Source: Candidatus Nomurabacteria bacterium | GTDB taxonomy: Bacteria > Patescibacteriota > Minisyncoccia > Phycocordibacterales > SBAW01 | Reading direction: 5' to 3' | NCBI GenBank assembly: GCA_020854065.1 | Contig: JADZGF010000008.1 | Location: 1-36,806, forward strand | DNA length: 36,806 nt | Part shown: positions 10,229-14,881 of the stretch, piece by piece | How the letters are laid out: the number at the start of each line of letters is the position of its first letter | Position numbering within the stretch: the first letter of the stretch is position 1 | Position numbers and translations under genes: made by a program | Notes under the pieces: generated by a model | What the model saw: the letters and a program-made list of their open reading frames with translations, nothing else | Database searches by the model: none | Told to the model about the DNA's origin: nothing

Positions 10229-10605
10229 GGGGATGACAGGCCTAGACAATTGGACTACGCGATTGATGCGCGAGTCAGAACTGGGGTACTTCTTAAAACT
10301 GCTCCACACTCTAACTGGCAAATCAGTTGCATCGCCTTAGTTTAAGGCGAATGATTTCGCGCTCGCCTAACGCTTAGGCTGAGTTCGTCAGCGCTCCTTC
10401 AACACTCGTGAGGAGGAATACGCTGTTATATTACCGAGTTGCTGCGAGGGAGCTGATCACTCCCCTGCTTAAGACATGATCTTTGCTCTGCCGCGCTTTG
10501 GTGCGCCTTTAATTCGGCAGAGTGAGCATCGAAGGTGTACTACGTCTCGTAGAAGCCCAATCCGTATCCTTTTGCACGGGGGTTCAACTCCCCCCATCTC
10601 CACCA
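10229..10605 (+). ncRNA. ssrA: tmRNA (SsrA)
   Basis: 5' GGGGATG pairs with 3' CATCTCC-ACCA; T-arm ACGGGGGTTCAACTCCCCC; tag reading AAG GCG AAT GAT TTC GCG CTC GCC TAA; directly downstream of smpB. Confidence 0.93.
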
Positions 10606-12781: not shown

Positions 12782-14095
12782 CTATAGGTTTATCACCGCC
12801 TGCTCCCCCGCACTGGGCGCAACTGCATCAACACTCAAATAGTCGCGGATACGCTGGGTGAGGAACGCAGCTGAGGCAGGTTCACCCTCAACCACAAACA
12901 CTTTTTCTATACCGTCTGATGACTTGTTCACCAACTCCAAAAGTCCTTCCCCGTCACGGTGTGCCGAATAGCCAAAGATTGCCTCGACTTTCGCCCCTAC
13001 CTTCACCGGCTCATGGTGCAGATCAACGGTCTTTGCCCCCTCAAGGAGACGACGACCAACAGAGCCTGCCGCTTGGTACCCGACGATAAGGAGGGTTGAT
13101 TTATTGTCCGGCAATACCCAACGCTCGTGCGCTATGACGCGACCACCGGTCGACATGCCAGAGCCCGCAAGAATAATCTTTGGGTTTGGCGCATGCTCAA
13201 GCGCACGTGACTCTTCCGTCGTTTCGATAAACTTCAACCCGGGGAAAGAAAAGATATCCCCCTTCCCCAACTCCTGTATAAACACTGCGGTCACCTTGCT
13301 CGCCAGCGGTGAATCAACATACACCGGCATAGCAGGCACTCGCTTCTCGCTCATAAGCGTTTTGATTTCATACAAAAGATCTTGGGTACGCTCGGTCGAG
13401 AATGCAGGGATAAGCAACGTGCCACCACGCCCTGCAGAGTCTTCGATAACATTCTCGAGTCTTTCGCGCCGATCCTCATCCTGCCGCACTCGATCACCAT
13501 AGACGCTCTCGAGCAATACATACTGCGCCTTAGGCAGCGTATCGATGTGTGGCAAGAGTGGTGAGTTGCCACCGCCAATATCACCGCTAAAGAGTACGGT
13601 CCTCCCATTGCGCGTAATGGTGGCCATGGCAGAGCCTAAGATATGCCCTGCATCATGGAGCGCAACAGTGCACCCATCAGCCAATGCTACATCTTCGCCA
13701 TACTGCGCCACTTTCCAAAGCGAGAGTGCTTTTTCAATATGTACCGGAGTATAAGGAGTATCTGCCTCCTTCATATCGAGGAGCTTAAATGCATCATGCA
13801 GCATCGGTTCAGCGAGCGCGCGTGTTGCCGCAGTTGAGAGTATCGTACCGGCAAATCCTTGTTTAACGAGCCACGGTATGCGACCAATGTGGTCGATATG
13901 TGCGTGAGTCACGATAAGGTGTGAGACTTCCTTTGCATCGTATGCAAACGGTACCCAATTCTTCTCCTCATCTTTATGGGAACCTTGCTGCATTCCGCAG
14001 TCGACTAAAAACTTCGCACCGCCCGTATCCAACATAAAATTAGAACCTGTCACTGTCCCTGCCCCACCGTAGAAGGTAATTGTCGATTGTTGCAT
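12782..14095 (-). CDS. MBL-fold/beta-CASP RNA-processing exonuclease-like protein
   Basis: THAHIDHIGRIP, GHILGSAM, FSGDIGG, PAFSTERTQDLLYE, IILAGSGMSTGGR, GYSAHRDGEGLL. Confidence 0.9.
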   Translation of the reverse strand: MQQSTITFYGGAGTVTGSNFMLDTGGAKFLVDCGMQQGSHKDEEKNWVPFAYDAKEVSHLIVTHAHIDHIGRIPWLVKQGFAGTILSTAATRALAEPMLHDAFKLLDMKEADTPYTPVHIEKALSLWKVAQYGEDVALADGCTVALHDAGHILGSAMATITRNGRTVLFSGDIGGGNSPLLPHIDTLPKAQYVLLESVYGDRVRQDEDRRERLENVIEDSAGRGGTLLIPAFSTERTQDLLYEIKTLMSEKRVPAMPVYVDSPLASKVTAVFIQELGKGDIFSFPGLKFIETTEESRALEHAPNPKIILAGSGMSTGGRVIAHERWVLPDNKSTLLIVGYQAAGSVGRRLLEGAKTVDLHHEPVKVGAKVEAIFGYSAHRDGEGLLELVNKSSDGIEKVFVVEGEPASAAFLTQRIRDYLSVDAVAPSAGEQAVINL

Positions 14096-14110
14096 GGATT
14101 TATCTTAACA
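14096..14110 (-). promoter_or_regulatory. Extended -10 promoter of beta-CASP gene, predicted leaderless
   Basis: Minus strand TGT-TAAGAT-aaatcc-ATG. Confidence 0.45.
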
Positions 14111-14119
14111 AAGTTATTA

Positions 14120-14268
14120 TCAGAAAATCCCGCGCCTGCGGGATTCTCTGGTGGACGCCGGGAGCAAGTGTCTGACTTTAAGCCAGGTGGGTGCTATAAA
14201 GCGGTACACCACGGTGCCCCGCATCAGGCTCCCTTTTTAACACTTAAGGACATTTGCTCCCGAAGTCC
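14120..14268 (-). ncRNA. Candidate structured ncRNA (6S-like shape), about 149 nt
   Basis: Extended -10 TGC-TATACT at 14283-14275(-); GGACuUCGGGAGCAAaUGUC pairs with GACAcUUGCUCCCGGcGUCC; internal bubble and apical hairpins; terminator AATCCCGC-AGGC-GCGGGATTTTCTG at the 3' end; no plausible ORF. Confidence 0.65.
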
Positions 14269-14287
14269 TCTATAAGTATAGCAAAAA

Positions 14288-14881
14288 CTACTCGTCGATG
14301 CCGAAACGCTTGTATTTGTGAATTGGGTGTTTCCCGAACCAGTGCTTGATCTCGTGTGCTGCCTCCTCAGTGGTCTCAGACGCATGGATAAGGTTGTATA
14401 CCGAGCGACGCTCGAGGTTAGCGGAGAGTGCAGAATCTGCAGAGTAGTCGCCACGGATCGTACCCATCTCAGCAGATGCGGGCATCGTAGCGCCAACAAT
14501 CTTGCGTACCATCGGTACTGCATGCACGCCCTGCACCACCATGCGTACCATCGGGGCGCTGACCATAAAATCAACAAGCCAGCCACGCACTACCTTACCC
14601 ACCTTAAGCAGGTCGGTTGTACCAAAGTCTTTTTTAACCTCGTCAATAGAAAGACCGTTCTTCTCGTATGTTGAAAGAGTCTTCTCCCCTAGACGGCGTA
14701 CCCAAGAGTCCGCCTTCGGATAATGGGAATCAATTTCCTTGCGGGTTGCCTGGAACATCTCCATAGCAACCACTTTTAGATCGCGCTGTTCAAAGCGCTT
14801 GATGATCTCACCGATAAGGCCCTTGCGGACCCCGTCCGGCTTGATGAGTACAAATGTCTTCTCCTCTTTAGGATGCATCAT
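14288..14881 (-). CDS. ndk: Nucleoside diphosphate kinase (long form)
   Basis: KTFVLIKPDGVRKGLIGEIIKRFEQRDLKVVAMEM...GTIRGDYS...NLIHASET. Confidence 0.93.
   Translation of the reverse strand: MMHPKEEKTFVLIKPDGVRKGLIGEIIKRFEQRDLKVVAMEMFQATRKEIDSHYPKADSWVRRLGEKTLSTYEKNGLSIDEVKKDFGTTDLLKVGKVVRGWLVDFMVSAPMVRMVVQGVHAVPMVRKIVGATMPASAEMGTIRGDYSADSALSANLERRSVYNLIHASETTEEAAHEIKHWFGKHPIHKYKRFGIDE

Follow-up and report, generated by a model that had tools for sequence, protein, structure and literature searches.

A short and highly divergent RNA, very probably 6S RNA, encoded between ndk and a β-CASP nuclease gene in a Candidatus Nomurabacteria genome

Introduction

6S RNA (SsrS) is a global regulator of transcription, an open-promoter mimic that restrains RNA polymerase. 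Typical 6S RNAs are about 180 to 200 nucleotides long, although length does not define the family, and the Rfam model (RF00013) has 187 positions. In the 6S-1 RNA of Bacillus subtilis, both a hairpin in the 3′ strand of the central bubble and a helix formed on collapse of the bubble have been described, and a version reduced to the bubble and 2 short arms still runs through the cycle in vitro, although its affinity is about 10-fold lower (PMC8876501). The Ms1 RNA of Actinobacteria, which is also a 6S-like rod with a bubble, is about 300 nucleotides long, carries extra terminal hairpins, and binds the core polymerase (PMC9130861). In the phylum Patescibacteriota, 6S RNAs of a few members are already detectable by Rfam (Rfam 15). 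No paper on 6S RNA in this group was found in the open-access literature, and novelty is judged here against that literature and Rfam 15.

Here, we examined a stretch of 36,806 nucleotides from a Candidatus Nomurabacteria bacterium of the order Phycocordibacterales (contig JADZGF010000008.1), referred to in its full length as the window. A previous reading made from the sequence alone had placed an unannotated structured noncoding RNA on the minus strand between ndk and a β-CASP gene, had noted that its long rod and bubble resembled 6S RNA, and had left the family open.

Results

A structured RNA in the gap between ndk and the β-CASP gene

The gap extends from position 14096 to 14287, and the RNA and both neighboring genes are read on the minus strand. 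The features of the locus are given below in the direction of transcription. R1 and R2 refer to covariance models built from the genus homologs and from 43 genus- and order-level sequences, respectively.

14288..14881, minus strand: ndk, the conserved upstream neighbor, which keeps this position and orientation at most loci in the genus and the order
14275..14283, minus strand: extended -10 promoter TGC-TATACT, TGCTATACT, from sequence and promoter scan
14152..14269, minus strand: core of the putative 6S RNA, with closing stem, central bubble, and terminal arm (R1 95 bits, E = 2.9e-22; R2 83.3 bits; folding z = -4.8)
14249..14268, minus strand: 5′ strand of the closing stem and putative pRNA template, in covarying pairing with 14153 to 14172
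14234..14248, minus strand: 5′ strand of the central bubble (CUUAAGUGUUAAAAA), unpaired in the MFE structure
14240..14245 with 14166..14171, minus strand: candidate collapse helix AAGUGU/ACACUU, from complementarity
14189..14233, minus strand: terminal arm, with a GGGaGC/GCaCCC base and a GC-rich apical hairpin, from conservation and covariation
14173..14188, minus strand: 3′ strand of the central bubble with the ACCUGG motif and the 3′-bubble hairpin, as predicted in the window
14153..14172, minus strand: 3′ strand of the closing stem, a covarying helix
14121..14150, minus strand: terminator-like hairpin 3′ of the RNA (-22.7 kcal/mol, z = -6.7)
12782..14095, minus strand: β-CASP metallo-β-lactamase-fold nuclease, the conserved downstream neighbor

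The RNA has a core of 118 nucleotides and measures about 150 nucleotides through the end of the hairpin. No shuffled sequence folded as well as the gap segment from 14100 to 14290 (z = -5.4) or as well as the core (z = -4.8), and the long closing helix of the previous reading is thus real. The closing stem joins the 5′ and 3′ ends of the RNA by 18 pairs, which covary in both the genus and the order. The central bubble is large and asymmetric: its 5′ side has 15 nucleotides, and its 3′ side has 16, some of which form a small hairpin. The UCCUUAA segment of the 5′ bubble strand was unchanged in the first 18 genus homologs, and the 3′-bubble hairpin was better than in shuffled sequences (p ≤ 0.05) in 31 of 43 homologs. 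At the base of the terminal arm, the GGG/CCC pairs were invariant in all 43 homologs, and each of the 8 pairs of the apical helix had changes on both sides. The central bubble and the GCGGggCAC/GUGuaCCGC apical hairpin proposed earlier were both predicted and conserved. An AGCC/GGCU pairing, which had also been proposed, was unsupported and was rejected in favor of the conserved GGGaGC/GCaCCC base. The structure predicted by RNAalifold from a MAFFT alignment agreed with the one drawn by hand.

The extended -10 element was confirmed at positions 14283 to 14275, just upstream of the closing helix. A -10 hexamer with a match of at least 5 of 6 bases was present in all 32 genus homologs checked, 28 of which also had TG one base upstream, and the distance from the -10 element to the start of the helix was about 5 to 7 nucleotides in nearly all of them. 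A stable hairpin directly after the rod was likewise present in 32 of 32 homologs. The intrinsic terminator of the previous reading was recovered in part: a strong hairpin is located at 14150 to 14121, but the U-run lies inside its 3′ arm, which is why a simple terminator scan gave it no score. Since the -10 element and the hairpin were found at all 32 genus loci, the gene looks, as far as sequence can tell, like a stand-alone transcription unit.

Homologs and covariation

When 60 related genomes were searched at the DNA level, matches were obtained in 18, including that of the window itself, all of which belong to the same genus. In the alignment of these 18 homologs to the hand-drawn structure of 33 pairs, 95.3% of the cells were paired and 18 of the 33 pairs changed on both sides, a level of covariation that was reached in 0 of 500 shuffles. 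When the partner was slid by 1 to 3 columns as a control, pairing fell to 36% to 43%. In the extended alignment of 43 genus and order sequences, 92.6% of the cells were paired, 29 of the 33 pairs had changes on both sides, and 451 cells were changed on both sides compared to 123 ± 12 in shuffles, all counts that are biased toward the structure by the fitting of this alignment to the model. The sequence of the closing stem has turned over almost completely, and there is little doubt that its pairing is real despite the fitted alignment. The covariation counts (18 of 33 pairs in the genus, 29 of 33 with the order) strongly contradict the view that no helix covaries across the homologs.

Distribution in the genus, order, and phylum

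A search with the Rfam 6S model and with a new covariance model had been suggested together with the original proposal. RF00013 gave 0 matches in the window genome even at an E-value of 10, whereas R1 identified a single sense-strand copy in 34 of the 35 genus genomes, the exception being the complete genome G030, in which no match was obtained. Within the order, R1 matched 71 of the 147 genomes and R2 matched 128 (E ≤ 0.1), which leaves 19 genomes with no R2 match. In the phylum, R2 matches were obtained in 83 of 240 genomes (E ≤ 0.01). The near-universal conservation as a single copy in the genus and order and the covariation bear out the presence of an unannotated structured RNA in the gap. 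Matches of the models to the opposite strand at the same locus were dropped because they are mirror images of a near-palindromic rod and have far lower scores (49.6 vs. 95 bits in the window). An exact-pattern scan of viral contigs gave no match.

It was also noted that 3 genomes of the order contained 2 tandem 6S-like copies a few hundred bases apart, which suggests that 6S genes have been duplicated:

L082: 1481-1599 and 1940-2051
L081: 1501-1646 and 1793-1916
G094:C10: 6914-7041 and 7114-7240

Assignment to the 6S RNA family

The previous reading had recognized no conserved 6S sequence in the RNA, which proved to be wrong. The RNA contains GGGAGC...GCACCCACCU(GG), where conservation of the Rfam 6S consensus is highest, and the combination of the invariant GGGAGC...GCACCCACCU with a 3′-bubble hairpin is as in that consensus. 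In an alignment to the Rfam consensus, the bubble-proximal GGGagc...gcaCCCACCUgg was shared, with the small hairpin of the 3′ side of the bubble directly behind it; the conserved bubble-proximal GGG...CCCACCU of 6S RNA is thus present in the window RNA.

RF00013 exceeded the Rfam cut-off in none of the 147 order genomes and in 4 genomes elsewhere in the phylum. Its weaker matches coincided repeatedly with the loci identified by our models. The best weak match in the genus, with 19.5 bits over the full model, was exactly the homolog in genome G021, and 2 further weak matches in the genus corresponded to R1 loci, as did 5 in the order and 7 in the phylum. In total, 15 of the 39 RF00013 matches in related genomes overlapped R1 matches on the same strand, an overlap for which the computed chance probability overstates the significance since both models favor GC-rich rods. 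Conversely, R2, which contains sequences from within the order only, was applied to the 20 RF00013 loci from the rest of the phylum. All 20 were recovered at identical coordinates, with E-values between 7.5e-10 and 0.053 in 105 kb of sequence. The 4 loci above the Rfam cut-off were among them, and the best of these received a weak score of 24 bits. In a whole-genome search of the phylum, R2 matched 18 of the 25 genomes with RF00013 matches at E ≤ 0.01.

When the window and the gap were scanned directly against Rfam, no family was above the threshold at the gap; matches to RsmY, istR, and RAGATH-21 were far below the cut-offs and were discarded as chance matches. The missing direct match above the Rfam cut-off reflects a limit of detection, and the cut-off itself is not a biological definition. 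Because of the reciprocal matches of RF00013, R1, and R2, and the shared bubble-proximal sequence and hairpin, the RNA was classified as divergent 6S RNA. The family that had been left open can thereby be named, and we consider it very probable that the gap encodes a short, highly divergent 6S (SsrS) RNA.

The window RNA shares with RF00013 members the closed rod, the asymmetric central bubble, and the GGGagc/gcaCCC arm base followed by ACCUGG and the 3′-bubble hairpin, as well as the apparent organization as a single-copy, stand-alone gene and the reciprocal model matches. It differs from them in its shortened terminal arm, with a core of 118 nucleotides compared to the 187 positions of the model and the 180 to 200 nucleotides of typical members, in falling below Rfam detection, and in its location between ndk and the β-CASP gene. 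The closing-stem element UGUUCGU/GCGGC of the Rfam-grade 6S RNAs of the phylum is absent from it. Like B. subtilis 6S-1 (PMC8876501), the window RNA has a 3′-bubble hairpin and may form a helix that collapses the central bubble, but it is shorter, and the collapse helix has been kept in only part of the genus and order.

Gene neighborhood

The order ndk, RNA, a small open reading frame in some loci, and β-CASP gene is kept across the genus and in much of the order. In many loci, the reading frame between the RNA and the β-CASP gene codes for a hydrophobic protein of about 130 amino acids (L045, 1670-2053; L060, 1689-2105), for which no match to a Pfam family was obtained. The models nearest to the β-CASP protein (12782 to 14095) were type VII Cas14 and archaeal aCPSF1, both below the curated cut-offs. 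The window also contains a tmRNA gene on the plus strand (10229 to 10605) with the predicted tag APHSNWQISCIALV. Elsewhere in the phylum, ndk was located nearby only at loci L091 and L101 and this β-CASP gene at none, as judged from the fetched flanks, and some loci adjoin a tRNA gene (L110) or the RNase P RNA gene (L092).

Alternative explanations

A position upstream of the β-CASP gene on the same strand, which was seen at most order loci and at 31 of the 32 loci inspected in the genus, together with the hairpin that stands between the two, would also suit a cis-acting leader or attenuator whose structure and terminator control read-through into the β-CASP gene. This is unlikely because the RNA is kept elsewhere in the phylum at loci of which 30 of 32 had neither ndk nor the β-CASP gene in the fetched flanks. 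Furthermore, an extra small open reading frame separates the RNA from the β-CASP gene in many genus and order loci, some genus members (such as L009 and L018) have a promoter-like -10 element between the hairpin and the β-CASP start, and the RNA has the closed rod of 6S RNA, with homology to RF00013.

A rod-shaped RNA that merely resembles 6S RNA and has another function, such as binding of the core polymerase in the manner of Ms1 or protein binding as a small RNA, is about equally improbable. For the members of this clade, a 6S function is a prediction from sequence, and Ms1 is an example of a 6S-like RNA that targets another form of the polymerase (PMC9130861). However, the homology to RF00013 members of the same phylum is continuous, the conserved sequence at the bubble is specific to 6S RNA, and no other Rfam family was above the threshold. 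Ms1, with its 300 nucleotides and extra terminal hairpins (PMC9130861), is also unlike the window RNA, whose 118-nucleotide core has no terminal hairpins inside the rod. Hairpins are common in intergenic gaps, and RF00013 by itself finds nothing in the window genome, as would be expected for chance inverted repeats or remnants of terminators, but that explanation is refuted by the covariation, and the near-universal conservation and the promoter and hairpin architecture make it scarcely credible.

Discussion

By analogy with described 6S RNAs, the bubble of the window RNA would imitate an open promoter, and the RNA would occupy the active cleft of the polymerase that carries the primary sigma factor, so that less is transcribed when nutrients are short. 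A homolog of the primary sigma factor (RpoD-like) was identified in the genome with a score of 343.4 bits, which is below the curated cut-off of 354. On recovery, the polymerase would copy the 5′ strand of the closing stem into a short pRNA, with a predicted start near 14246 to 14248 and a sequence of about 5′-AAGGACAUUUGCUCCC. The 3′ strand, once displaced, may then pair through ACACUU with AAGUGU of the 5′ bubble strand, by which the bubble would collapse and the enzyme be released. Polymerase binding, pRNA synthesis, and pRNA-driven release are thus inferred for the window RNA from the described systems. In folding predictions, blocking of the 5′ closing strand, as by a pRNA, caused the window RNA to refold into the AAGUGU/ACACUU helix.

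Of 15 genus sequences tested in alignment A2, all but L011 had a complementarity for the collapse helix above that of shuffled sequences (p about 0.01 to 0.06), although these 14 are close relatives. Among the order members, significance was reached in 8 of 29. Within the genus, one lineage (L043, L045, and L047 to L052) had a strong 3′-bubble hairpin and no collapse helix, whereas the reverse pattern was observed in most of the core group of the genus, for which L023 to L036 were compared. The window RNA contains both putative release devices. It is conceivable, albeit doubtful, that these RNAs form a minimal 6S subfamily whose lineages swap 2 release devices, the 3′-bubble hairpin and the collapse helix, and that the fixed placement between ndk and the β-CASP gene is a sign that polymerase sequestration is functionally tied to the supply of nucleotides and to RNA turnover in these ultra-small bacteria, which probably depend on a host.

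If the assignment is true, Rfam detection is blind to 6S RNA in almost all genomes of the order (0 of 147 above the cut-off, compared to 128 of 147 with R2), and very reduced genomes of about 0.4 to 1.3 Mb retain the 6S regulator. The covariance model for the order and the set of short natural 6S RNAs may then serve structural work on a minimal open-promoter mimic.
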